Position numbers and translations under genes: made by a program. From Hysterangium stoloniferum (lineage: Eukaryota > Basidiomycota > Agaricomycetes > Hysterangiales > Hysterangiaceae), in contig WHVD01000223.1 of assembly GCA_015178975.1 (NCBI GenBank), positions 1-64,000 of the forward strand: DNA of 64,000 nt, written 5' to 3'. This document shows, one piece after another, positions 17,481 through 62,378 of this stretch (position 1 is the first letter of the stretch; each line of letters opens with the position of its first letter). The notes under the pieces were generated by a model. The model had not been told where the DNA came from. It saw only the letters and a program-made list of their open reading frames with translations, and searched no databases.

Positions 17481-18266
17481 CATTAGGATACGTACACAGT
17501 GGGTTTCCAGCAGGACTTGGCTTCAGCTTATAGGCTGCACCCTCGCGAGATCATGTTGTCCAATTTCAAATGGGTGGAGGGGAAACCCGGGGAGTCCAGG
17601 CGGGGTTTATGGGTCGAGGGGTCATAGGTCAGAGGTCATGGGTCGAGAGGTCGGGGAGTCGAGATAAATAAAAGAGATAGATGCATCAGAGCCCATGGGC
17701 TCTGACTAGCAAGAGCAGTGTAATTCAAGGAGGAGTTTAGAGTGGAAAAGGTATTAGATTACTGGGGGGAATCTAAGCTGATTTTCTGACTGGATTGTAT
17801 GTACAACATCTGCCAGACTATATAGACCGTGGAATGAATGACATACCAAATCCAGTATTAATGAAATAGAATTAGCAAAACATAAAACAAGAATAGTAAA
17901 CACCAAATTGGTGTTAGGAATGGGACGGAATGGAGCAGAGTCCAAATCGTGACAAATCATAAACCATAATGGGAAATGGAGCAGGAGTGGAGTCCAAATC
18001 ATGACAGGTCAATGACTAAAACAGGAATGGGGCTCAGTTAGAGTGATGATGGGTTTTCCGAGTGGGGTCTGGTGACTGACATGTGGGACAAGGTCAGACA
18101 TAGACAGGGATGGAGTCTGGTGGGTATTCTGGTGACTGATACACGATGTAACGAAGTCGAGCATGGACAGGTCTGATGTATGGAGTCTGTGCAGGAATTC
18201 TGGTAAACTGACAATTGGTATATATAAGTTAGCGCCTGGAGTCCAGCAGGAATTCCGGTCGTAACA
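17481..18266 (-). repeat. Solo LTR, family F, in copia RNase H
   Basis: 786 bp, reverse orientation, flanked by perfect ACTCC duplications (17,476-17,480; 18,267-18,271). It is homologous to the LTRs of element F at 31,725 and 38,651. Confidence 0.9.
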
Positions 18267-29295: not shown

Positions 29296-30038
29296 TGTCA
29301 GGGCAATATATGTATATAATATATATTTTTGCCATTTATTTTTTATTTTAGTTTATTTTATTATATCTACATGTAGCAGTGCAGGCATGGCACGAGAACA
29401 ATTATGTAATCGCACTGCCACCACCACAGTTGCACCATTGTGACACATGGGTATACTGCACAGTCACAAAGTGCACAGAGATATGGACCATTTGAAATCA
29501 CCAAAGTTATTGGTCCAAATGCTTATAACTTGAAACTGCCTTCTTCCATGAAAATCCATCCAGTTTTTAATGTAGCCAAGCTCAGGCCTTTCCATGAGGA
29601 CACCATTCAAGGGAGGATACCTCCAGTTGGGCCTCCTCCAGTTACATATTAAGGGAGAAACTCCCGAGTGGGAAGTTGAATATCAAAGATAGCAGATTGG
29701 CATGGGGAAAACTACAATACCTAGTGAAATGGAAAGGGTACCCTCAAGAGGAATGCACACGGGAACCTGCTGATAATCATGGAAACTCCAATAAACTAGT
29801 GGAGAAATTCCATAGCCAACACCCCTTTGTACCTAGGAGGATCTCTGCCTTAACCTTCAGTAGACTCCCTTTCCAAACTTATATCAACTTCACAGAGACT
29901 ATGGCTCAGGCTGGAACCTATGGAACTCTGGCAAGCACATTGAGGGCAATGTGCCTTCAGGAGGGGTGATGTCAGGGTAATATATATAATATATATTTTT
30001 GCCATTTATTTTTGATTTTAGTTTATTTTATTATATCT
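29296..30038 (+). mobile_element. Chromovirus remnant: LTR start, pol C-terminus, second LTR start
   Basis: Two copies of an LTR beginning TGTCAGGG with an AT-rich ATATAT stretch start at 29,296 and 29,970. Between them only the pol C-terminus remains: the GPY/F module (RYGPFEITKVIGPNAY) and chromodomain (WEVEYIKDSRL, LQYLVKWKGYPQEE). The second LTR start follows a G-rich tract and is cut at 30,039 by a mariner; its continuation resumes at 31,615 and is cut again by element F at 31,725. Heavily reduced and broken. Confidence 0.75.
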
Positions 30039-30276
30039 ACAGTAGGCAACAAAACCATTCGGATGTTTCTTTGTTTTGAAAAGACCCTTTAGCATTAGCC
30101 CAAAATAAATTCTAAAAATTCTGAATAAATTATGATAGATGCTCTAATATCACAAAATGTTGATTACATAACCATTATGTCATATGTCCATTTATGGAAA
30201 TGTAATAATAGGATTAATGAAGCTTGTACATCTGAACAGTTTTGTTGCCTGTATTTTATAAACCCTATATACTAAA

Positions 30277-30745
30277 CTAGTACTTGGTATACCCTCCCTT
30301 GGCCTTAATTACAGCTTCAACTCTTCTAGGCATACTTTTTACCAAGTTCTGACACACCTCTTTTGGTATCTTCTCCCATTCCACTTGACAGTGCTTCCTA
30401 AGCTCCTCCACTCCACTAGGTAATGTGTTGTAGTCAGTTAGCCTCCTTTTCAAGGGTTTAGATCTGGAGACTGTGCTGGTCATTGCATAACAGTATAGCC
30501 ATGGTCATCAAACCACTTTTGAGCAGTTTTCTGGTATGCTTTGGCCCATTATCCTGCTGGAAGATGGTATCAGATGGAGTTTCTTTGTAAAACTCAAGGG
30601 ATTGCTGAAGTTCATCCTCCAAGATGGAGCAGTAAAGCTGTGAATCCATCTTCCCTTCAATACTAGTGACATATCCAATGCCTTCCCAATGCATGCAAAC
30701 CCACATCATCATACTACCACCATCAAACTTCAATGTTCCCTCCAC
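30277..30745 (-). pseudogene. Transposase C-terminal half, left arm
   Basis: Blocks GTLKFDGGSMMMWVCMHWEG, TIFQQDNGPKHT (second catalytic Asp), then after a shift of frame KSMPRRVEAVIKAKGGYTKY. The PxxN-[E] catalytic Glu block is degraded here. Confidence 0.85.
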
Positions 30746-30759
30746 CTCACAGGAGGGAG

Positions 30760-31376
30760 AGGCTACAGTGGGCAGAGAGACATCAGGAGTACACTCTGGA
30801 GGTCTGGAAGAGTGTTGTATTCTCTAATGAGACCAAAATCAATTGTCTTGGGTCAGATGGAAGGAAGTGGTTGTAGAAAAAGGTGGGGGAGGGGTTGACC
30901 GATAGGCAGGTGGAGGGATCATTGAGGTTTGGTGGTGGTAGTGTGATGATGTGTGGTTGCATGCATTGATAAGGCATTAGATATGCCATTAGGATTGAAG
31001 GGAAGATGATCCACAGCTTTACTGCTCTATCTTGGAGGATGAACTTCAGCAATCCCTTGAGTTTTACAAAGAAACTCCATCTGATACCATCTTCCAGCAG
31101 GATAATGGGCCAAAGCATACCAGAAAACTGCTCAAAAGTGGTTTGATGACCATGGCTATACTGTTATGCAATGACCAGCACAGTCTCCAGATCTAAACCC
31201 TTGAAAAGGAGGCTAACTGACTACAACACACTACCTAGTGGAGTGGAGGAGCTTTGGAAGCACTGTCAAGTGGAATGAGAGAAGATACCAAAAGAGGTGT
31301 GTTAGAACTTGGTAAAAAGTATGCCTAGAAGAGTTGAAGCTGTAATTAAGGCCAAGGGAGGGTATACCAAGCACTA
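30760..31376 (+). pseudogene. Transposase C-terminal half, centre and right arm
   Basis: It begins EVWKSVVFSNETKINCLGSDG, where the usual catalytic Asp of WSDE is Asn. It then carries the same blocks as the left arm with stops and shifts, ending PRRVEAVIKAKGGYTKH. It is a partial inverted duplicate of the left arm. Confidence 0.85.
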
Positions 31377-31724
31377 GTTTAGTATATAGGGTTTATAAAA
31401 TACAGGCAACAAAACTGTTCGGATGTACAAGCTTCATTAATCCTATTATTACATTGCCATAAATGGACATATGACATAATGGTTATGTAATCAACATTTT
31501 GTGATATTAGAGCATTTATCATAATTTATTCAGAATTTCTAGAATTTATGTTGGGCTAATGCAAAAGGGTCTTTTCAAAACAAAGAAACATCTGAACGGT
31601 TTTGTTGCCTACTGTATGTGTGTTTTTATATTGAATTGACACTCCGCTCAGTTGAGACGTGAAACAAGATTCATTAATTGTGACTGAGTATTAGGTAGGT
31701 GATTCCACTGCCAATGAAGAGTCG

Positions 31725-32648
31725 TGTTATGACCGGACAATCCCACCAGACTCCGGGCATTAACCCGTACACCTCCACGCGCTACAAGCACCAATTGTCT
31801 GTTTATAGGATTTCCCGCCCAGACTCCATTACGTCAAGACTCGTTACGTTCAACCTCATTACGACACATATCAGTCACCAGACTTCCCCCGGACTCCATC
31901 TCTGTCTATGTCCATCTTCGTCCCATGCACCAGTCACCAGACCCCACTCAGAATCCCATCACCACTCTAATCAAGCCCCATTCCCGTTTTAGTCAAATGA
32001 CCTGTCACGATTTAGGACTCCGCTCCCATTCTGTTTTCCGTTATGGGTTATGCTTTGTCACGATTCGGACTCCGCTCCGTTCCATCCCGTTCCTAACACC
32101 AATTTGGTGTTTACTATTCCCGTTTTATGTTTTGTTAGTTTTGTTTTGTCATTACTGGATTTGGTATGTCATTAACTCCATGGTCTATATAAACTGGCAG
32201 ATGTTGTACATACAATCCAGTCAGAAAATTAGCTTAGATTCCCCCCAGTAATCTAATAACATTTTCCCCTCTAAACCCTTGCTTGATTCACATCACTTTC
32301 ACTAGTCGGAGCCCACGGGCTCTGGCGCATCTATCTCTCTCAACTATCTCGACTCACGACCCATGACCTCCGACTTACGACCCACAACCTCTGACTTACG
32401 ACCCACAACCTCCGAGTTATGACCCACAACCTCCGACTTACAACCCACAACCTCCAACTTACAACCCATGACCTCCGACTTATGACCTACGACCCACCAA
32501 CCCCACCCGGACTCCCCGGGATTCCCATCCGTCTGTTTGAAATTGGACAACACAATCTAGCGAGGGCACAGCCTATAAGCTGAAGCCAAGTCCTACCGGA
32601 TATCCCACAGGTTTCTCTGGAGACCCAGCCTGTGTGTGTATCCTAACA
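31725..32648 (+). repeat. 5' LTR of element F
   Basis: 924 bp, TGTTATGACCGG...TCCTAACA. It contains a short, diverged version of the 21-bp minisatellite (about 32,345-32,500) and the shared group motif CTATAAGCTGAAGCCAAG near 32,569. Confidence 0.93.
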
Positions 32649-32684: not shown

Positions 32685-33990
32685 ATGCCACCAAGAAGAA
32701 GTACACGCGCACAGTCATCATTACCTGGACTGTCGACTCTTCATTCCCCGTTAACTCTGTATACCAGTCAGACGCTTGCGAACCAGTCGGAAACCATGGA
32801 AGAAGCCCATATCGAAGAAGTCCTGGAAAACCAGGACGAATCTGAGCACGAGGACAATTCCGTGGCCCCCGACAAGGGCAAAGGTGTTGAAATTCCTCTT
32901 GAAAATCCTCCGCCTGTTCAACAACCCCACTTGGGGGATCCTACTTCTGAATTTTTAGCAGGTACTATAGATAAATTCATGACGCACCTGCTCGAAGAAT
33001 GAAAGAAAAAGGAACAAGAACCTCCATGGTCAAAAGTCAATGCTCCGGGACCCTTCACAGGTTCCAACCCAAACAAACTCTCTACTTTCCTCATGCAATG
33101 TCGCTTCAATTTCCATGATCGTGCCACTGCATTCTCCACGGACTCCCGAAAAGTCAACTATGCACTTTCATATTTGTCGGGATCCACGTTGAAATGGTTC
33201 GAACTGGCTTTTAGCGGGATTTCCGAGGAAGAACCGCTCTGGCTTGAAAATTGGGAGGCTTTTGTTGACGAGCTTGAAACCAACTTTGGCCCATATGACC
33301 CGACAGGAGAAGCCGAGAATAGTCTCACAAATCTTCGTATGAAGGACACGCAGCGCATCACAGACTACATCCTCCAATTCAATAATCTTGCAGCTCGTTG
33401 TCAGTGGGGCGATCCCGCTCTCCACCACCAATTCTACGCCAGTCTGCCATCCCACCTTAAAGATGAAGTCTCGAAAGGAGAAGATGGCAAGCCAAAAACC
33501 CTGTCCTGTATGCGCCTCAAAGCTCAAAACGCGGATGCACACTATTGGGAACGTCACGCGGAAGTTGCCCGCGAGACCTCCGCGGACAAGGTAAACAAGT
33601 CCACAGTCAATAAAAACAACAACAATAATTCGTCAACCAGCAACCAGAACTCCATGCAATCCGACAAGAAGAACAATAAAAAGTCTTCAAACCACAACAA
33701 CAATAAGGACAATAAGGACAACAACAAGGGTCAACAGTCCGGCAAGCAAGCCAGAAAACCCAACCTCTCAGGCAAACTCAGACCCGATGGCAAATTGACC
33801 CCACAGGAAAGACAATGTCGTATGGACAACAACCTCTGTCTCTTGTGCAAGAAACCCAGTCATCGAGTCCCAGAATGTCCGCTGGCAAAAGCAAACTCTT
33901 CAAAGGGTTGAACAGCCAAGGCCTCCACGGAAACCCCATCGAAGGACAAACCGGCTTCCGATTCGAAAAAAGAGTAAGCAACCCCGCGGA
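32685..33990 (+). pseudogene. gag region of element F
   Basis: An N-terminal acidic part, a capsid-like Retrotrans_gag domain (LSYLSGSTLKWFE, WEAFVDELETNFGPYDP, MKDTQRITDYILQFNNLA), a long Asn/Lys-rich low-complexity linker (about 33,590-33,740) and a CCHC knuckle CLLCKKPSHRVPEC. Broken; a decayed second copy of the knuckle part is at 56,881. Confidence 0.85.
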
Positions 33991-34019: not shown

Positions 34020-37000
34020 CTCCGCGCATTCAAGAGTTTACTCACCTCAATGCATCCACTCTTTCACATTCTGATTCATTTTTTGTTAAACTTATGTCTA
34101 ATATGATTCCGAAATTCATTTTTTCAGCTCTCATAGATTCCGGCTTGACTCATTGTTTTTTAGATACAAAATTCACACAAAAAAATTCTTTGTCAACTTA
34201 TTCGATAAATCCCGTCGCACTCCACCTCTTCGATGGCACAAGTAATTCAGTTGTTACCCAAGCTTGTGATTTACCCATCAGTTTCCCTTGTGGAACATCT
34301 CAATTGGTCACTTTCTATGTGACCCAGTTAGACTCAAGTTGCTTGGTGGTCCTAGGACATAACTGGCTTACCCGCTACAATCCGTTGATTGACTGGATAG
34401 CTAACAGTATAACATTCCAGACTCCCACGGCAGCCGAGGAAACTGCACCTGTCTCGGCCTCCATGGCACCCATGGCCTTCCTGGCACCTGCAGTCTCGAG
34501 GACTCCTGTGATCCCTACGGCACCAATAGCTTCCCCGGAACCCACGGCACCTCCGTCCATTTCTCTGATTAATGCTGCAGCTTTTATTAGGGCTTCAAAA
34601 ATGGATGGGTCCCAGGCATTCACTATCAAATTAAAAATTGATGAAGCAACTGGACGTTTTTCAACCCGGTATCTGAATCTGAGCAAGCCGCTGACCTAGA
34701 AGGCATCCCGGAGAAATATCATGACTTCGCGGATGTTTTTAGCAAGCAGAAAGCTGACCGGCTTCCGCCTCACAGAGAATATGACTTAGAAATCGATCTT
34801 GAAGATGGTGCCCAGCCACCCCTAGGACATATTTACCCGCTCTCATCCACAGAATGTTCTGTGATCCACAATTTCCTGGATGAACATTTGTCCATAGGTT
34901 TTATCTGACCCTCAAAGTCTCCATTTGGAGCACCCATTCTGTTTGTCAGAAAAAAGGATGGATCCCTTTGACTATGTGTTGATTTTAGAGGACTCGATGC
35001 TGTCACCAAGAAGGATAAATATCCACTCCCACTTATATCTGATCTGCTCGATGCTCCATAGAATGCCCGGATTTACACCAAAATAAATCTCAAACACACC
35101 TATAATTTGGTCTGGATTGCCACGGGCGACGAATGGAAAATCACTTTTAGAACCCGTTATGGGGCCTTCGAGTGGTTGGTGATCCCCTTTGGACTCACCA
35201 ATGCTCCATCTGTTTTTCAGCATTTTATCAACAACATTTTCTCCAACATGCTCGATGTATGTGTCATTGTTTACTTGGACGACATTCTTATCTACTCTGA
35301 GAATCCCGCAGAACACGACAAACAAGTCCGTGAAGTTCTCCGGAGGCTCAGACAACATGGTTTATTCGCAAATGGTAAAAAATGTACTTTTGACATGGAC
35401 TCCATGGAGTACCTAGGTTTCATGATGGGACCCGATGGACTCCAAATGGATGAAACTAAAGTGCAAGTCATCAAAGATTGGCCTGAACCCCGAAAAGTTA
35501 AAGATATACAATCCTTCCTCGGCTTTGCCAATTTTTACTGACGTTTTATCCTTGGATATTCTGACATCACGGTACCCCTTACCCGTCTTACGCGTAAGGG
35601 TACTCCGTGGAATTTTAACGATAAGTGTCAAAAAGCTTTCAATTTTTTGAAAAATTCTTTTTCTACAGCTCCTATTCTGTTGCATTGGAAACCGGACTTC
35701 CCGCTCATTGTTGAAATGGACACCTCGGATTATGCACTTGGAGCCATTTTGTCTATCCAGGACTCCAACGGAGAAGTCCACCCCAGGGCGTTTCTGTCCC
35801 AGACTTTTACCGGAGCAGAGCTCAACTACGACGTTCATGATAAAGAACTTCTGGCAATCTTTTCAGCCTTCAAAGTGTGGCGACACTATTTGGAAGGTTC
35901 AGGAGCTCCTATTGATGTTGTAACAGATCACAAAAACCTGGAATACTTTTCTACCACAAAACCTTTGACCTGCCGGCAGGCCCGCTGGTCTGAATATCTA
36001 TTTGCTTTCAACATGATTATCTGCTTTCGACCCAGCCGTCTCGGCGGCAAACCCAACGCTTTAACTAGACGATGGGACATCTATCCTAAAGAGGGGAGCA
36101 ACGACTATGCAATGGTAAATCCGCACAACCTGAAACCTATTTTCACGAATCAACAACTTACCACATCGGTCCATGCAACTTTCCTCGTCAATCCCATTGT
36201 CCGTGGAATTATCATTATGGATATTGAGAAGTTACATCAAGATATTCTATCGGCAATTCCGCTAGACCCAGTTACTAAAGTTAACCTTGACAATCCTGTG
36301 AACCCCGATCAACCTCAGTGGTCTCTTGATCAACATGGTTTCATTAGACTTGACGATTGCATCTATGTACTGGACTCCAACAGTGTCAGGGGACAATCCT
36401 AAGTTTTCCATTTTCTCTGACTCTCCTTAATATAGTTCATAAGTAAAGACTGAGAGGGGCACCTTGTTGTTATCACATTTTCAAACTCAGCTGCACCTTT
36501 AGTTAGTCACCCACTAGCCGAGGATTCCTTAGACTTTTCTCTTCGGATTTCCTCTGCTAGGTAAGTAATATTGTATTCTACATGTATGTAATTAGATAGG
36601 TATAAACTCACTTCGGATTTCCTCTGCTAGGACCCCAACTCAGTCATAGTGTGAGTTAGTGCGGTCTAGAGAGTCGCCCTTACAAACAGCGTCCGCCTCA
36701 GGATCCTTCAATACAAACATGATCATCCACTCTCAGGACATTTCGGGTACAACAAAACTCTATCATTAATAAGAAGAGAATATACTTGGCCTGGACTCTG
36801 TGGATTTGTTAAGCACTATTGTAAATCTTGCACTACTTGTCCCCGCTCGAAATCTCAGTGACACAAGCCATACGGCCTTTTGAAACAACTCCCGGTACCG
36901 GAACACCCATGGAATTCTATCTCTATGGATTTCATTGAACACCTACCGGATTCCGAAGACTTTTCTGCTATTCTAGTCGTTGTTGACAGATTCTCAAAAC

Positions 37001-37830
37001 AAGGTATATTCATCCCTACATATGACACAATTACGTCCATGCAGTTAGCGGAACCTTTCATTATCCACATATTTTCCAAGCACGGAGTTCCATTCCACGT
37101 GACTTCCAATTGAGGATCAGAGTTCATGTCTCACTTCTTTAGATCCCTCAGAAAATCCTTGGACATGACATTACATTTCACGTCCGGACATCATCTGGAA
37201 GGTGACGGACAAACCGAACATGTCAACGAGACATTGGAACAATACCTCCGCGTATATTGCAACTATCAACAGGACAATTGGAAATCCTTGTTACCACTTG
37301 CAGAGTTTGCTTACAACAATGCACCTTTGGCCACTACTGGCGTTTCCCCATTCTTTGCAAATAAAGGATATAATCCAAATATTACAGTACATCCAGAATG
37401 AAATCTCGCCTCTGTTCACGCTCAAGAGTTCACCACGGACCTCCACAAGCTCCACGAGGAACTCTGGACTGCAATATTGTCCGCCCAAGAGCAATACCAA
37501 CATTCAGTGGACAAACACCGGATCCTGCCACCCAACTTCAAGATTGGTGACCACGTTTATGTCAAAGCTCAATTCTTCCGGACTACCCATCCATCAAAGA
37601 AGCTTGCTGAAAAATATTTAGGTCCTTTTGAAATTATCACACAAGTAGGTTCAGTCTCTTGGACTCTACGGCTTCCGGATAGCATGCGCGCAACACATTT
37701 TGGGCTTCTATGCCCTCGGCGATCTGTCCCAAGGCTTCCTCCAGACTGGAGTACCCATCTGACCTGCCATTCTCCCGTGAACCAGACCCCACAGCCTGCT
37801 CGTGAACAAGCGAGCACCTCACCTTGAGGT
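34020..37830 (+). pseudogene. pol region of element F (PR, RT, RNase H, IN, GPY/F)
   Basis: The protease has ALIDSGLTHCFLD with a canonical DSG. RT has VDFRGLDAVTKKDKYPLP, WLVIPFGLTNAPSVFQ and the catalytic IVYLDDILIYSE. RNase H has VEMDTSDYALGAIL and VVTDHKNLEYF. Integrase has ISMDFIEHLPDS, LVVVDRFSKQ and LEGDGQTEHVNETLEQYLR. A GPY/F module follows (EKYLGPFEIITQVG). No clear chromodomain follows. Its end overlaps the last exon of the antisense gene. Broken. Confidence 0.88.
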
Positions 37831-38440
37831 GCGCGCACTGGTAACACCCTGGGCCCCGGCCGGACTTCTGATTGCACTCAGTGTTCCGGTCATTACAACT
37901 GGAACACCGCGGGTCATTCCGAGCCGGTAGGCGGACTGGTGCCGCCTTCCTTGCTTTCTGTTGATACGGTTAGCTCCACAGTATACCCACGGACCCGAGA
38001 CTCACCTTGTTGGGGCTTTCTGGCTCCCCCTCAGACTTCGACTCGACTTCTGCCGCCTTGCACTGAAAATGCCAAGTCAAAAAAAAAGCGACAAGTTGAA
38101 TTATGGGACTTACCTTTCCTGCAACAACTGCAGCTCTATCCACGGCCACCCAGGCTTTCTCTGCCACCACCCTGGCCTTCTCCACAGCCACCCACGCAGC
38201 CTCCTCCTCCTCCCTCTGCTTCTGCCTCGCAGCCTCTTCCTCCACGGCCACGGCCGCCTGGTATTCCCTATTCAGGGCCTCCTTGACCTCCCGGGCTTCT
38301 CGCTCTGCCTCTTCTCGCTGTCGATGTTGCTCATCCTGCTGCACCAAGATTTGGGCAGTGGAGAGCAGTGCCCGGTACTGACTGCCCATGGAGGGCCTGG
38401 CGGTTGGCATAGGCTTGCCCAGCGTGGGCTTTGGTCCCAT
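37637..38440 (-). CDS. Antisense spliced gene inside element F: coiled-coil Zn2Cys6 zinc-cluster protein
   Basis: A three-exon minus-strand gene that looks whole. Proposed exons are 38,440-38,114 (109 codons), 38,062-38,006 (19 codons) and 37,957-37,637 (106 codons plus stop), 234 residues. Both introns are canonical (GTAAGT...CAG, 51 bp; GTGAGT...CAG, 48 bp) and phase 0. The N-terminus (MGPKPTLGKPMPTARPSMGS) leads into a long charged coiled coil rich in Glu, Ala, Arg and Gln. The C-terminal part has a C-x2-C-x6-C-x9-C-x2-C-x6-C cluster, which fits the fungal Gal4-type Zn2Cys6 spacing and suggests a nuclear DNA-binding protein. It lies between pol and the 3' LTR, on the opposite strand, with its last exon overlapping the pol 3' end. 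Whether it is a captured host gene or an element-specific regulator is unknown. Splicing and function are inferred from sequence only. Confidence 0.75.
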
Positions 38441-38650
38441 GTTATCAATGATGGGGATAATAAAGAAGAAGAAATTTCTATTTTTTCAAATTTATATATA
38501 GGCTCATCGTGTTTGAACCTTACCTTCCAGATCACATGACTCTTTGAGACATACGTGTAACTGACATGACTTTTGACACATGCGCGTAGCTGACAAGAAC
38601 CTTATCTGGGTCTAGAGCCTCTTTGGGACTTCGGCATAAAGGGAGGGTAC
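38441..38650 (-). promoter_or_regulatory. Likely 5' flank of the antisense gene
   Basis: About 210 bp between the antisense ATG and the element F polypurine tract. AT-rich pieces near 38,455-38,515, including TTTATATATAGG, could serve as a minus-strand promoter; this is inference from position. Confidence 0.35.
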
Positions 38651-39669
38651 TGTTACGACCGGACAATCCCGCCGGACTCCGGGCACTAACCCGTACACCC
38701 CCACATGCTACAAGCACCAATTGTCTGTTTATAGGATTTCCCACCCGGACTCCGTTACGTCAAGACTTGTTACTTTCGACCTCATTACGACACATATCAG
38801 TCACCGGACTTCCCCCGGACTCTGTCTCTGTCTATGTCCATCTTCGTCCCATGCATCAGTCACCGGACCCCACTCAGAATCCCGTCACCGCTCTAATTGA
38901 GCCCCATTCCCATTTTAGTCAAATGACCTGTCACGATTTAGGACTCCGCTCCCGCTCCATTTCCCGTTATGGGTTATGCTTTGTGACAATTTGGACTCCA
39001 CTCCGTTCCGTCCCGTTCCTAACACCAATTTGGTGTTTACTATTCCCGTTTTATGTTTTGTTAGTTTCATTTCATCATTACTGGATTTGGTATGTCATTC
39101 ACTCCATGGTCTATATAAACTGGCAGATGTTGTACATACAATCCAGTCAGAAAATTAGCTTAGATTCCCCCCAGTAATCTAATAACATTTTCCACTCTAA
39201 ACCCTTGCTTGATTCACATCGCTTTCACTAGTCAGAGCCCATGGGCTCTGGCGCATCTATCTCTCTCAACTATCTCGACTTACAACCCACAACCTCCGAC
39301 TTACAACCCACAACCTCCGACTTACAACCCACAACCTCCGACTTACAACCCACAACCTCCGACTTACAACCCACAACCTCCGACTTACAACCCACAACCT
39401 CCGACTTACAACCCACAACCTCCGACTTACAACCCACAACCTCCGACTTACAACCCACAACCTCCGACTTACAACCCACAACCCACAACCTCCGACCTAT
39501 GACCTACGACCCACGAACCCCACCCGGACTCCCCGGGATTCCCGTCTGTCTGTTTGAAATTGGACAACACGATCTAGTGAGGGCGCAGCCTATAAGCTGA
39601 AGCCAAGTCCTACCGGATATCCCGCGGGTTTCTCCAGAGACCCAGCCTGTGTGTGTATCCTACCTAACA
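38651..39669 (+). repeat. 3' LTR of element F
   Basis: 1,019 bp, TGTTACGACCGG...CCTAACA, about 95 bp longer than the 5' LTR, mostly from minisatellite length. It contains the group motif near 39,587 and the following hairpin around GGGTTTC. Confidence 0.93.
39276..39490 (+). repeat. 21-bp minisatellite in the element F 3' LTR
   Basis: About ten near-perfect head-to-tail units of CGACTTACAACCCACAACCT plus C. The unit length is a multiple of three, so long open frames cross it on both strands; these are by-products of the repeat. The 5' LTR holds fewer, diverged units. Confidence 0.95.
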
Positions 39670-43114: not shown

Positions 43115-43928
43115 TGTTAGGATACGTACAGGGTGGGTCTCCGGAGAAACCCACGGGATATCCGGTAGGACTTGGCTTCAGCTTATAGGCTGCACTCTCA
43201 CTAGATCGTGTTGTCCAATTTCAGACAGGTGGACGGGAATCCCGGGGAGTCCGGGCAGGGGTCATTGGTCGTGAGTCGTAAGTTGGAGGTCGTGGGTCGT
43301 GAGTTGAGACTGGTGAGAGAGATAGATACACCGGAGCCCGTGGGCTCTGACTAGTGCGAGCAGTGTGAATCAAGCAAGGGTTTAGAGCGGAAAATGGATT
43401 AGATTACTGGGGGGAATCTAAGCTAATTTTCTGACTGGATTGTATGTACAACATCTGCCAGTTTAAATAGACCGTGGAGTAAATGTCATACCGAATCCAG
43501 TAATAATGAAACGAAGTGAGCAAAACATAAAACAGAAATAATAAACACCAAATTGGTGTTAGGAACGGGACGGAATGGAGCGGAGTCCAAATCGTGACAA
43601 AGCATAACCCATAACGGGAAATGAAGCAGGAGCAGAGTCCAAATCGTGACAGGTCATTTGACTAAAATGGGAACGGGGCTCGATTAGAGCGGTGATGGGA
43701 TTCTGAGCGGGGTCCGGTGACTGATGCGTGGGATGAAGATGGACATAGACAGAGACGGAGTCCAGGGGAAGTCCAGTAACTGATATGTGACGTAATGAGG
43801 TTGAACGTAACAAGTCTTGACGTACGGAGTCTGGGTGGGAAATCCTATAAACAGACAATTGGTGTGTGTAGGGCATGGTGGCATACAGGTTAGTGCCCAG
43901 AGTCCAGTGGGATTGTCTGGTCGTAACA
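43115..43928 (-). repeat. Solo LTR, family F
   Basis: 814 bp, flanked by perfect GTTGG duplications (43,110-43,114; 43,929-43,933), inside RT. Confidence 0.92.
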
Positions 43929-44988
43929 GTTGGGCTAGTTCTAGTATGGCATGAACTTTCTCCTGGTGGGTCGAGAAACCCAATCTGGACACCTTATGGC
44001 CTAACAACAAGATTGAATTATATCCAATAAAACACTTTTTAGGAGAGAGAGTGATTCTGGCTGATGCGATAGCACTGAGCACTTGATTTAAATGAAGGAG
44101 GTGATCGTCCCAATTCTTAGAGAATATCACTATATTGTCAATGTATACCAGACAAACAATCCATAGATAAGGTGCCAAAACAGTTGGCATAACACGCTGA
44201 AACATAGAGGGGCCATTTCTGAGTCCGAACAGCATCCTTTTGAATTGCCACAGGTCTCTGTGAGATCTGAAGGTGGTTTTGGACTTATCATCCTCCAACA
44301 TTTCTAACTGGGTAAATCCTGCCAGTGCATTAAAGAAAGAGAGGATGTTTGACCCTGACAACACTTGCATGCTCTCTGATCGGTGTGGTAAGGGAAATTC
44401 ATCTGGAATGGTAAGGTGGTTGAGCTTTTGGTAATCAATAACCACTCATGGTTTACCATTGCAATATACTACAAAGGCTGGTGCCCCCCAAGGACTTTTA
44501 GACAGCTCGATGACACCCTGTTTGAACCAGGTGTCCATCTGCTCATCTATAACTCTCCTGTTGGTGGGGGAGGATGAGAACATAGGCATTGAGATGGGCT
44601 GAGCACCCTCTTTCAGAGGGACAGGAAGCCTGCAGTCCACTTGTCCCAACCTTCTGTCAGCCCCGAAAGCCTTAACATTCTCAGTCAGTACTGATCTGAG
44701 GCATGGCAGGACTTCAGTTGGTATATCTGGTCCCAGATTGACTAGCTTATGGAGGTCCTCCGAAGCAAGCTTCTTGTTTTCAGCCACAGTGGCTGTTTTG
44801 GGACTGGATGGTTTGAAGTCATCTGCAAGCTCCAGCTCAGCAAGTGGTGTAGGCATTTCTGAGGCAAACTGGCAATCCTCTTCGAGCTGAGAGAAAATTT
44901 CGATAAGATGCATGATCTTGGTCGCATTTGCCACCATTAAATTCCTCTCTGTGAGTGAACTGGGTTTCAGGGCCCAACAGGTGGGGTC
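43929..44988 (-). pseudogene. RT core of the minus-strand chromovirus
   Basis: DLHKLVNLGPDIPTEV, GVIELSKSPWGAPAFVV, VIDYQKLNHLTIPDEFPLP, FNALAGFTQLEM and CLVYIDNIVIFSK. It has the same YIDN catalytic variant as element 1, so the variant is a family trait. Confidence 0.88.
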
Positions 44989-49778: not shown

Positions 49779-51347
49779 TGTTACAACCGTGTTGCAACTG
49801 TGTCACAACCTGACAGTCCCTGATGATACTATTGTATGTCTGCATTCCAAGTTATTGGCCAAGTCATCATATCGGCAACTGTTGGTAAACTGACAATGAT
49901 GTATACCTTCATGGTGATCAAACCCCATTTACACCCCTGTCAAGTTATACTTGTACCATCTGATTATGCTTTGATACATCCCTTTTTACTTATGATGATC
50001 CATTCCACTCTATGTTTCACATATGCCTGTATATACTTGTAGCCCTTGAACTATTCCCTTTTCTCATAAATCCACTCTCAGTTAATCACAGCTTCTGATC
50101 TTATCGTAACCTTCTGGTTCCTAGTCAAGTTTACTTGTCACTAATTGGACATTCCCACTCTTACCTTAGTTAGTATTTCGAGATGCCGATAACTAGTATT
50201 TAAGTCCAACTGTAATGTAGCTATAAAGCAATCAGAATATTGACTCAGAACACCCCTAAACAACTCTCATAGTCTCACTCTAAATATCTTGTTCTCTGCC
50301 TCTGCTTGCACTTGTGCACTCTCAGTTTCTGACCAATTTGACCCAACCCACAACTTATCCTTTGGCCTCTGATCGGTGACTTACCGAGAGGATATTTGTG
50401 TTACAACTGGAAAACCCACCAGACTCTGGGCACTACCCTATATGACCTACACCCTACATGCACCAGTTATTGGTTAACTGGAATACCCACCAGGACCCAA
50501 ACATCAAACCTGCCCTGTCTGACCTTCATTGTCTCAAGAACCAGACACCAGATTACCCACTGGGACCTGTGCATGTCGTACCTGTCTATCCCCGACCCTG
50601 TCCCACACATCAGTCACCAGACTCCATTTGAAAACCCGTCAGCTCTCTAACTGAGCCCCGTTCCCATTATGGTCAAATGACCTGTCACATTTCAGACTCC
50701 CCTCCACTCCATTCCATTCCTAACACCAAACTTGGTGTTTACTTATCTCGTTTCATGATTATTAGTTTAGATTTCAATATTACTGGATTTGGTATGACAT
50801 ACATTCCACAGTCTATATAATCTGGCAGATGTTGTACATACAATCCAGTCAGAAAATCAGCTTAGATTTCCCCCAGTAATCTCAGTACATTTTCTGCTCT
50901 AATCTCCTCTTTGAAACACACTGCTATTTACCTCATTGGAGCCCACAGGCTCCAACCTATCTATCACTCAACCTCCAACTCATCACCACCTGACCCCTCA
51001 ACCTCCATGGGATTCCCACAGTCGACCATCTGACCTCTCAACCCACCAACCACTCCTGGACTCCCTGGGATTCCCATCTGCCCATCTGAAATTGGACGAC
51101 ATGATCTCATAAGGGCACAGCCTATAAGCTGAAGCCAAGTCCTATCAGCCTCCACAGGTTTCTCCAGAAACCCTCTGATAAGCTCTGTGCACACTCCTTA
51201 ACAATTCGACAAGACTAGTTCTCCACCTGCCTGAAATTTAAGGACACCCGATGGTAACTTGCAAGGGTGCAGCACATAAGCTGAAGCCAAGTCCTTCCGT
51301 TCAGTCCCCATTGGTCTACCAACATCAGTCAGTTTTCTGTTCTTAAC
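49779..51347 (+). repeat. Solo LTR, family H, nested in E
   Basis: TGTTACAACCGTG...GTTCTTAACA with perfect AGAGC duplications (49,774-49,778; 51,348-51,352). Group motif near 51,268. Confidence 0.92.
50400..51203 (+). repeat. Solo LTR, family F-like, nested in H
   Basis: TGTTACAACTGG...CCTTAACA, flanked by ATTTG and ATTCG (four of five). Group motif near 51,119, followed by a hairpin around GGTTTCTCCAGAAACC. Confidence 0.88.
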
Positions 51348-59537: not shown

Positions 59538-60390
59538 TGTGAAGAGGCTTGCAGAGCTTATCAGAGGGTTTCTGGAGAAACCCGTGGGAAAGCTGGTAGG
59601 ATGTGGCTTCAGCTTATAGGCTGCACCCTCGCGAGATCGTGTCATCCAATTTCAGATGGGCAGACGGGAATCCCAAGGAGTCTGGGAGTAGTTGGTGGGT
59701 TGAGAGGTCAGAGGGTCGACTGCAGGAATTCTGTGGAGGTTGAGAGGTTGGGCGATGATGAGTCATAGGTCGAGTGATAGATGGGTCAGAGCCTGTGGGC
59801 TCTGATGAGGTAAGAGCAGTGTGTTTCAAGGAGGAGAATAGAGCAGAAAATATACTGAGATTACTGGGGAGAATCTAAGCTGATTTTCTGACTGGATTGT
59901 ATGTACAACATCTGCCAGACCATAGAGACTGTAGAATGTATAACATACCAAATCCAGTAATAATGAAATCTAAACTAGTAAACATGAAATGAGATAAGTA
60001 AACACCAGATTTGGTGTTAGGAATGGAATGGAGCAGAGTGGAGTCCGAATTGTGACAGGTAGTTAAACCATAATGGGAATGGGGCAGAAATGGAGTCCAA
60101 ATTGTGACAGGTCATTTGACCATAATGGGAACAGGGCTCAGTTAGAGAGCTGACGAGTTTTCCAAGTGGAGTCCGGTGACTGGTACATAGGACAGGGTCA
60201 GAGATACATAGACAGAGTGGGTTCTGGCAGGTATTCCGGTGACTGATACATGAAGTGACAAAGGTCGAGCATGGACAGGTCTGACATCCAGAGTCTGGCA
60301 GGTATTCCAGTAAACTGATAATTGGTGCATGTAGGGTGTGGGTGCATATAAGTTAGTGTCTGGAGTCTGGCAGGTTTTCCAGTCATAACA
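59538..60390 (-). repeat. Solo LTR, family F-like
   Basis: 853 bp with perfect GAAAC duplications (59,533-59,537; 60,391-60,395). Group motif near 59,605, next to a hairpin around GGGTTTCTGGAGAAACCC. Confidence 0.9.
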
Positions 60391-60630
60391 GAAACCAGCT
60401 GAGTCACGAATTACATACTAATGAGGTGTCCCTAACCCTTGTAGTATGTAATCTGCTTTGTCTCCCTGACTACATATTAAGGGAGATGACTCATTGACTA
60501 GTCATATCAAATGTGAGTAGGGATGATCTATGACTCAGATACATAGTCATAGCTGGTTGGATGACTCTGAAATCCACCTATGAGTCAAGTATGGGAAATA
60601 CTGACTCATTCTCCTAGTCACATTACTTAG
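60391..60630. other. Unassigned
   Basis: Contains several GACTCA/TGACTC words and a pair of TACATACTA/TAGTATGTA inverted segments near 60,410-60,450. No gene or known element. Confidence 0.4.
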
Positions 60631-60902: not shown

Positions 60903-61698
60903 TGTTACGACCGGACAATCCCGCCAGACTCTGGGCACTAACCCATATGCCCCCACGTGCTACAAGCACCAATCGTCTGTTTATAGGATTTCCCGCCCGG
61001 ACTCCGTTACGTCAAGACTAGTTACATTCAACCTCATTAAGACACATATCAGTCACCGGACCTCCCCTGGACTCCATCTCTGTCTATGTCCGTCTTCGTC
61101 CCATGCATCAGTCACCAGACCCCGCTTAGAATCCCGTCACCACTCTAATCGAGCCCCATTCCCATTTTAGTCAAATGACCTGTCACAATTTAGGACTCCA
61201 CTCCCACTCCATTTCCCATTATGGGTTATGCTTTGTCACGATTCGGACTCCGCTCCATTCCATTCCGTTCCTAACACCAATTTGGTGTTTACTATTCCCA
61301 TTTTATGTTTTGTTAGTTTCGTTTCATTATTACTGGATTTGGTATGTCATTCACTCCATGGTCTATATAAACTGGCAGATGTTGTACATACAATCCAGTC
61401 AAAAAATTAGCTTAGATTCCCCCCAGTAATCTAATAACATTTTCCACTCTAAAACCTTACTTGATTCACATCGCTCGCACTAGTCGGAGCCCACAGGCTC
61501 CGGCGCATCTATCTCTCTCAACTATCTCGACTCACGATCCACGACCTCCAACTTACAACCCACGAACCCTGCCCGGGCTCCCCGGGACTCCCGTCCACCT
61601 GTCTGAAATTGGACAACACGATCTAGCGAGGGTGCAGCCTATAAGCTGAAGCCAAGTCCTACCGGATATCCCACGGGTTTCTCCGGAAACCCGGCCTG
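60903..61698 (+). repeat. LTR, family F
   Basis: TGTTACGACCGG... with the group motif near 61,640 and a strong hairpin (CGGGTTTC, TCCG, GAAACCCG) near 61,673. Left flank GTTAA; the right side passes straight into chromovirus RT without a matching duplication. Confidence 0.85.
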
Positions 61699-62378
61699 TA
61701 AGACCATTCTGAGGAAGTGCTGTAGCTCTCCTATCTTAGTGGGTTGGGCTAGTTCCAATATAGCAGCAATCCTTTCTTGATGGGTTGAGAAACTGAGTTG
61801 CAATACTTTATGTCCGAGCAACAGGATAGAGTTGTACCCAACATAACACATTTTTTGGGAGAGTGTTATGCCAGCCACAATAATGGCTTGTAAGACTAGA
61901 TCCAAATGTTCCAGATGATCATCCCATGTCTTAGAAAAGATCATGATGTCATCAATGTAAACCAGGCAGAAAATCCATAGATAGGATGCCAGTACAGCTT
62001 GCATAACTCTCTGAAATATGGAAGGTCCATTCCTTAATCCAAATGGCATTCTCTTAAATTGCCACAGTCCTCTATGGGATCTGAAAGCAGTTTTCAGTTT
62101 GTCTTCTTCCAGCATTTCAAGTTGGGTAAAGCCCACTAATGTGTCAAAAGAGGACAAAATGTTGGATCTGGATAAGGCTTACATTATTTCTGATTAATGT
62201 GGCAATAGGAACTCGTCATGGACAGTAATGCTGTTTAGCTTTCGGTAATTAATTACTACTTGAGGTTTCTCATTGCAGTAGATGATGAATGCTGGGGCTC
62301 CCCAAGGGCTCTTGGGACTTCTTGCTGAACCCAGGTGTCCATGTGTTTGTCAATGACCTTCCTGTTAGTGGGAGAGGT
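61699..62378 (-). pseudogene. Chromovirus reverse transcriptase fragment
   Basis: MSSFDTLVGFTQLEMLEEDK, MPFGLRNGPSIFQRVMQ, CLVYIDDIMIFSKTWDDH and GYNSILLLGHKV, of the same clade as element 1. This copy has the standard YIDD box. Broken. Confidence 0.87.

Follow-up and report, generated by a model that had tools for sequence, protein, structure and literature searches.

The window, that is, the whole stretch of 64,000 nucleotides of Hysterangium stoloniferum DNA analysed here, carries within a Ty3/Gypsy element one copy of what is almost certainly a conserved protein-coding gene, predicted to be spliced, on the antisense strand of an LTR retrotransposon. As judged from its genomic copies, this gene is the accessory gene of a large chromovirus family in this fungus, whereas the copy in the window is, by comparison with its relatives, a truncated relic. 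Splice sites, a TATA box and selection agree with each other on a genuine spliced antisense accessory gene with a Gal4-like cysteine cluster, as had been proposed in the first-pass annotation.

The window copy and its intact relatives

The gene model read from the window sequence consists of the minus-strand exons 38440–38114, 38062–38006 and 37957–37637, separated by introns of 51 and 48 bp which both have GT..AG ends and both lie in phase 0. It translates to 234 codons with cysteines in the spacing C-x2-C-x6-C-x9-C-x2-C-x6-C. This two-intron reading was found as initially described, and so was the position of the gene, with broken pol frames (several short ones) on one side and the 3′ LTR on the other. 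The features of the element are as follows.

31725–32645, plus strand: 5′ LTR, from LTR comparison
33093–33911, plus strand: gag fragment (PF03732, above cut-off)
35107–37696, plus strand: broken pol fragments with reverse transcriptase, RNase H and integrase (PF00078, PF17917, PF24626); chromodomain missing
37637–37696, minus strand: chimeric tail, residues 216–234 and stop; antisense pol brought in by a deletion, as seen by comparison with relatives
37696–37697, no strand: deletion junction (± a few bases), with ~780 bp missing relative to locus L027
37697–37957, minus strand: genuine remainder of exon 3, with the six-cysteine cluster and the beginning of the amphipathic segment, up to residue N215
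37958–38005, minus strand: intron 2, 48 bp, GT..AG, phase 0; donor kept in 46 and acceptor in 48 of 48 copies
38006–38062, minus strand: exon 2, 19 codons
38063–38113, minus strand: intron 1, 51 bp, GT..AG, phase 0; donor and acceptor each kept in 45 of 48 copies
38114–38440, minus strand: exon 1 of 109 codons, encoding the N-terminus and an extended stretch rich in Ala, Glu and Arg, of helix-like composition with weak heptad signal
38495–38500, minus strand: antisense-gene TATA box, lying 60 nt before the ATG and followed by a conserved pyrimidine-rich stretch
38638–38648, plus strand: polypurine tract adjoining the start of the 3′ LTR, read from the sequence
38651–39662, plus strand: 3′ LTR, sharing 92.7% identity with the 5′ LTR across 758 bp
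38659–38868, plus strand: six CCGGAC motifs in U3, candidate binding sites (starts at 38659, 38672, 38745, 38804, 38815 and 38863)

Relatives align with the window protein only up to residue ~217 and then extend further. Sequence comparison with L027 showed that, from the integrase end of pol to residue 215, about 780 bp are missing in the window. What was lost with this deletion is the pol chromodomain along with the pol stop, the convergent spacer and ~80–90 codons at the end of the antisense gene, and residues 216–234 of the window protein (37640–37696) are antisense pol sequence. The first-pass claims that the gene is whole and that its last exon overlaps the end of pol had therefore to be rejected, as both the tail and the apparent overlap result from the deletion. 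In eight relatives that were read, pol continues through the chromodomain to its stop, with a frameshift in L030 and a stop in L005, and the spacer between the stops of pol and of the antisense gene measures ~200 bp (L027, L053). Full-length relatives encode 288–304 amino acids and do not overlap with pol. A complete frame of this length ending in SPI[N/E]VD was present in 12 of 48 copies, or in 16 of 48 under looser criteria, both fractions being biased upward by the 20 copies (L031–L050) chosen among matches with no stop within the aligned stretch. The C-terminal SPINVD (e.g., L031:1287–1304) is invariant in 23 aligned exon-3 proteins, which had been preselected for INVD; we take this tail to recall a short interaction motif.

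The hallmarks of a chromovirus were found in the form of the LTRs and, by Pfam scan of the window, of gag, reverse transcriptase, RNase H and SH3_Tf2-1, the C-terminal SH3 domain of the integrase scoring above cut-off. The integrase core (rve, PF00665) reached 17.3 bits in one fragment, below its cut-off of 32.6, and had no match in the next one. The Chromo profile was just over its cut-off in L027 (26.0 versus 25.1 bits), and the window copy is without a chromodomain through the deletion. As its LTRs are 92.7% identical over 758 bp, the window element is not a recent insertion. Both LTRs contain a 21-bp minisatellite (39276–39483 and 32352–32482), which is more strongly expanded in the 3′ LTR. 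Additional LTR pieces of the same family lie at 60903–61699, 43115–43930, 17649–18219, 59772–60391 and 50399–51164 (68–93% identity over the U3 part), so the family has struck the window repeatedly. Just upstream of the 5′ LTR an inverted transposon pair (30038–31616) has arms of ~609 nt which are 98% complementary and lie 361 nt apart; the frames in these arms resemble those of a Tc1/mariner-type transposase.

Within the genome assembly (111 Mb, 554 contigs) the window protein has at least 266 matches, counted exon by exon with the best 150 candidates scored. All hits of the protein searches (1, 3 and 1) were from H. stoloniferum itself, the searches requiring shared 5-residue words and one of them covering the best 8000 candidates. 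Flanks in opposite orientation were found as an upstream LTR at 59 of 67 loci, as downstream pol at 63 and as both at 56, pol itself having been the selection criterion for 20 of the 67 loci (L051–L070). No host paralogue was seen among the loci examined, all of which show at least one element flank except for L045, which is a stretch of 2 kb. In 20 young copies picked on long open pol frames alone, six of which are 99.4–99.8% identical to L053 over 2.3 kb, the gene was at least partly there in all 20 and intact in 14. Of the remaining six, L070 ends with its contig, the gene of L061 lacks its middle part (only residues 1–58 are left) and L051, L058, L063 and L066 stop early. Many pol copies share identical scores and long open frames (pol frame 1304). 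The element family has recently been amplified and is possibly still active.

Splicing, selection and gene types

Each of the four splice dinucleotides was retained in at least 45 of 48 copies. Among the 48 copies, intron 1 has a length not divisible by three in 29 and intron 2 in 27, both introns measuring 49 nt in L053, while the length of exon 1 is divisible by three in 41 and that of exon 2 in 46. A TATAWA motif at −52 to −62 from the ATG was found in 46 of 48 copies, inside a conserved block. The persistence of the introns would be explained by the life cycle of the element, as reverse transcription uses the sense genomic RNA, in which these sequences do not act as introns.

Diversity at the three codon positions amounts to 0.172, 0.162 and 0.349, the third being about twice as variable as the first and second. 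The numbers of nonsynonymous and synonymous variants are 273 and 78 for singletons, 100 and 67 for variants shared by two or three copies and 249 and 243 for those shared by at least four (Fisher p = 5e-16, singletons versus the last class), and singleton variants are mostly post-insertion. A codon model fitted to 40 copies gave ω = 0.318, with a log-likelihood of −12275.5 compared to −12595.1 at ω = 1 (a gain of 320). Under the same model the shifted control frames gave 1.73 and 1.79 and the reverse frames 1.56, 0.43 and 2.10, the value of 0.43 belonging to the frame in which third positions are expected to fall on those of the gene. By region, ω across the 40 copies was 0.50 for exon 1, 0.79 for residues 31–109, 0.42 for the cluster region, 0.28 after the cluster and 0.30 for exon 3. 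The value for the cluster region exceeds that of the whole gene (0.32), and a much lower value of 0.10 applies only between gene types: the comparison of type A (n = 9) with type B (n = 6) gave 0.21 overall, 0.10 for the zinc cluster and 0.40 for the following helix. In the same 35 copies, ω was 0.311 for the antisense gene and 0.415 for the pol end, and each of the six cysteines is kept in 46–48 of 48 copies. By these measures, purifying selection has acted on the antisense gene during the multiplication of the element. Neutral evolution, which the first-pass annotation had named as a refuting outcome, is rejected by the codon-position diversity, by ω, by the constraint between types and by the fall of the nonsynonymous share with variant sharing.

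The divergence of the gene is distributed in blocks. Compared in segments of 100 bp, L053 and L027 differ by 18–31% along the gene and the final portion of the spacer, in contrast to 2–8% along pol, the initial portion of the spacer, the promoter and U3. Counted by transversions alone, the divergence of the two loci is 0.101 for the gene, as compared to 0.007 for pol, 0.033 for the promoter and 0.006 for U3, and because of this contrast of the gene to pol and U3, CpG decay was rejected as the cause of the divergent block. Among pairs of 39 copies, the gene has a median dS of 0.83 and the pol end one of 0.20; dS between types A and B is ~0.8–0.9 for the gene and 0.10–0.15 for pol in the listed pairs, with U3 nearly identical. 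The borders of the divergent types lie near the ATG and just beyond the stop, with nearly identical flanks (L053 versus L027 and others). A contrary case is L053 versus L010, where U3 (0.096) diverges about as much as the gene (0.085). As two gene types sit amid near-identical pol and LTR sequences, the gene apparently passes from one element to another in the manner of a cassette, and block exchange by template switching or gene conversion seems the simplest reading of this pattern. Across 30 U3 copies the observed/expected ratio of CpG ranges from ~1.0 down to ~0.2, and the proteins show many changes of Arg to Gln, Trp, Cys or His. This looks like methylation-driven decay serving as a clock.

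The predicted protein and the U3 motif array

The full-length protein consists of an N-terminal half rich in Ala, Glu and Arg, basic patches and the six-cysteine cluster, which is followed by an amphipathic heptad segment; its C-terminal tail is acidic. The basic patches (exon 2 and the start of exon 3) resemble what we take to be a bipartite nuclear signal. Heptad periodicity is strong right after the cluster (residues 196–245; shuffle fraction 0.002 with Ala counted as hydrophobic and 0 of 500 without), and weak in the Ala/Glu/Arg-rich stretch of exon 1 (0.37 with and 0.026 without Ala). From the long coiled coil described in the first-pass annotation, the exon-1 part is doubtful given its weak heptads, but the segment following the cluster is strongly heptad.

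The cysteine pattern CX2CX6CX9CX2CX6C presumably falls within the spacing permitted for Zn2Cys6 clusters (PF00172). The Zn_clus profile of this family matched the cluster segment in nine of nine family members at E ≤ 1 (best 2e-4), with 8.1–15.1 bits among the members for which bits are listed, below the cut-off of 21. The match spans positions 16–32 of the 39 profile positions, that is, half of the cluster, and for L031 the Sublancin profile equals Zn_clus in score. The whole protein had no Pfam family over cut-off, and the Pfam scan of the window protein returned no Zn_clus match. Neither another regulatory domain nor a bZIP family was found by Pfam scans of the antisense protein. The window protein also matched Chromo_2 (E 0.005, residues 208–226), but this match was discounted, as it is below cut-off and lies mostly within the chimeric tail. 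Against the PDB, a profile of exon 3 matched LEU3 at E 0.61, behind Talin-1 (0.029) and others, and a profile of the cluster alone matched no solved structure. In Gal4/LEU3-type proteins the order is cluster, linker and coiled-coil dimer helix, and a Zn2Cys6 cluster combined with a heptad segment is a layout mainly of sequence-specific transcription factors. The presence of a heptad segment where Gal4-type proteins have theirs roughly makes up for the weaker match to Zn_clus. The likeness to regulators of this type lies in the number and spacing of the cysteines, the heptad segment after the cluster and the CGG-type motifs in the LTR, whereas the sub-cut-off match to half a profile and the long Ala/Glu/Arg-rich stretch ahead of the cluster are unlike them. 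The protein appears Zn2Cys6-like rather than a proven member of this family.

Gal4-type proteins bind CGG triplets. In U3 of the window 3′ LTR the motif CCGGAC occurs six times on one strand, with 0.32 being expected and none of 1000 shuffles reaching six. Its density is 12.2/kb in U3 versus 0.205/kb in the rest of the window outside the LTRs of the family; the element interior holds five in 5 kb. Across 30 U3 copies the count ranges from 0 to 6, and the eight copies with none are mostly CpG-poor. Nine of the 20 young loci were readable via the exact LTR-start motif and carry 3–6 CCGGAC each, at mostly shared positions. Because of this array, control of the element is favoured among the roles which had been proposed for the protein, although the motif could instead serve a host factor or derive from local duplication. 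Co-divergence of gene and U3 beyond that of pol was not found in 34 copies (raw correlation 0.60, partial 0.01). This fits a conserved cluster and a conserved U3 and adds no positive support.

Related systems and the proposed function

The statement of the first-pass annotation that antisense accessory genes are rare in LTR elements was too strong. In plants, ORFs that lie in antisense orientation between pol and the 3′ LTR (aORF-3R) are called relatively frequent (PMC7264820), and their functions are undetermined (PMC7264820, PMC11963269). Examples given there are gene23 of maize Grande, rice RIRE2 and Silene Retand with its TRP28 domain; the Grande gene has its own upstream promoter and a nuclear protein, and DNA binding is predicted for the TRP28 domain of Retand (PMC7264820, PMC11963269). 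Location, orientation and retention in most copies are shared between these ORFs and the fungal gene (same sources), which likewise lies antisense between pol and the 3′ LTR, is kept in copies sampled by pol and is conserved as a protein. Unlike them, it belongs to a fungal chromovirus, encodes a six-cysteine cluster instead of TRP28 and has two conserved introns; the word "intron" is absent from the main text of both papers. Tcn1-like fungal chromoviruses are also Ty3/Gypsy elements with integrase and chromodomain, and a figure legend mentions an additional ORF of unknown function, with the terms "antisense" and "zinc" absent from the text of that paper (PMC2864245). No fungal precedent was found in the open-licence literature, as judged on titles and abstract openings. 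The nearest fungal work there concerns noncoding antisense RNAs from powdery mildew transposons (PMC10648671, as listed), and the available text of PMC10799480 contains neither "antisense" nor "hysterangium". Antisense accessory ORFs were hence known already from plants, and what appears to be new is a fungal one with a cysteine cluster and introns.

With respect to function, HBZ of HTLV-1 may be the best parallel, the function here being predicted. HBZ is a spliced antisense gene at the 3′ LTR end which encodes a nuclear regulator of the bZIP type (PMC10186651). The likeness to HBZ, and to HIV-1 ASP, is one of layout only, namely an antisense gene at the 3′ LTR end. The HBZ protein is unrelated, its promoter is TATA-less and inside the LTR, compared to a TATA box outside the LTR here, and the host here is a fungus.

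The best explanation of the data is, on balance, that an element-encoded accessory gene specifies a predicted nuclear regulator of the element's own LTR promoter and is exchanged as a cassette. That the protein is a nuclear, dimeric, DNA-binding regulator is quite probable, and the chances that it acts on the U3 array are about even. The antisense transcript would begin beside the 3′ LTR, be spliced and terminate in the spacer ahead of the pol end. The protein would then enter the nucleus and dimerise via the helix following the cluster, and the zinc cluster would bind DNA, most likely the CCGGAC (CGG-type) array of U3. Binding would control the LTR promoter of the element as well as the antisense gene's own promoter, and the acidic tail, which is absent from the window copy, might, as a guess, point to activation rather than simple repression. 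The gene would pass between elements as a cassette.

Other explanations fit parts of these observations. The window copy alone, being short and having an artefactual tail, might be taken for an open frame that arose by chance or for a wrongly read gene, but at least 266 genome matches (by exon), the conservation of splice sites and promoter and the selection on the protein refute this reading, whose probability is negligible. It is also very unlikely that the antisense RNA itself matters, through double-stranded RNA or interference with sense transcription, and that the protein is incidental. The conserved antisense TATA box would suit such roles, which are discussed for LTR elements in PMC7264820, but codon-level selection, kept cysteines and in-frame splicing need a protein, and an incidental one is contradicted by an ω of 0.32 where four of the five control frames exceed 1.5.

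If the protein itself is what matters, it may serve without any LTR regulation as a nuclear cofactor of integration or of the handling of genomic RNA or cDNA (e.g., targeting or nuclear import). The position of the gene beside a chromodomain-bearing pol end in the relatives read, the basic patches, the lack of a link between gene and U3 divergence beyond pol and the partial Zn_clus match all agree with such a role. We nevertheless consider it unlikely, as the Zn2Cys6-like module (nine of nine weak matches; ω 0.10 between types) is followed by a heptad segment in the layout of a transcription factor and U3 carries a dense CGG-type array. Quite unlikely, too, is a protein that counters host silencing or lets the element exclude its relatives, with deep gene lineages being held by diversifying or balancing forces. 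The presence of types A and B (dS ~0.8–0.9) between near-identical pol and U3, for which transversions exclude CpG decay, would be in line with this. However, protein constraint between the types is strong (ω 0.21; cluster 0.10), their U3 scarcely differs, and neutral cassette exchange via template switching gives the same pattern, which is moreover not universal, since in L010 U3 diverges as much as the gene.

The preferred reading of an element-encoded nuclear regulator can be extended further, to the doubtful and more speculative idea that fungal retrotransposons, independently of deltaretroviruses, evolved an HBZ-like spliced antisense transcription factor acting on a CGG-type LTR operator array. 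This factor would be a swappable module, with several ancient types in near-identical elements, following a logic like that of the exchangeable immunity modules of temperate phages.

The functional guess of the first-pass annotation survives, although its specimen is a relic. With a DNA-binding-like cluster, conserved introns and promoter, purifying selection and a candidate array in the LTR, the regulatory idea becomes directly testable in this fungus, and the cassette pattern suggests that genes of this kind are exchanged between elements.
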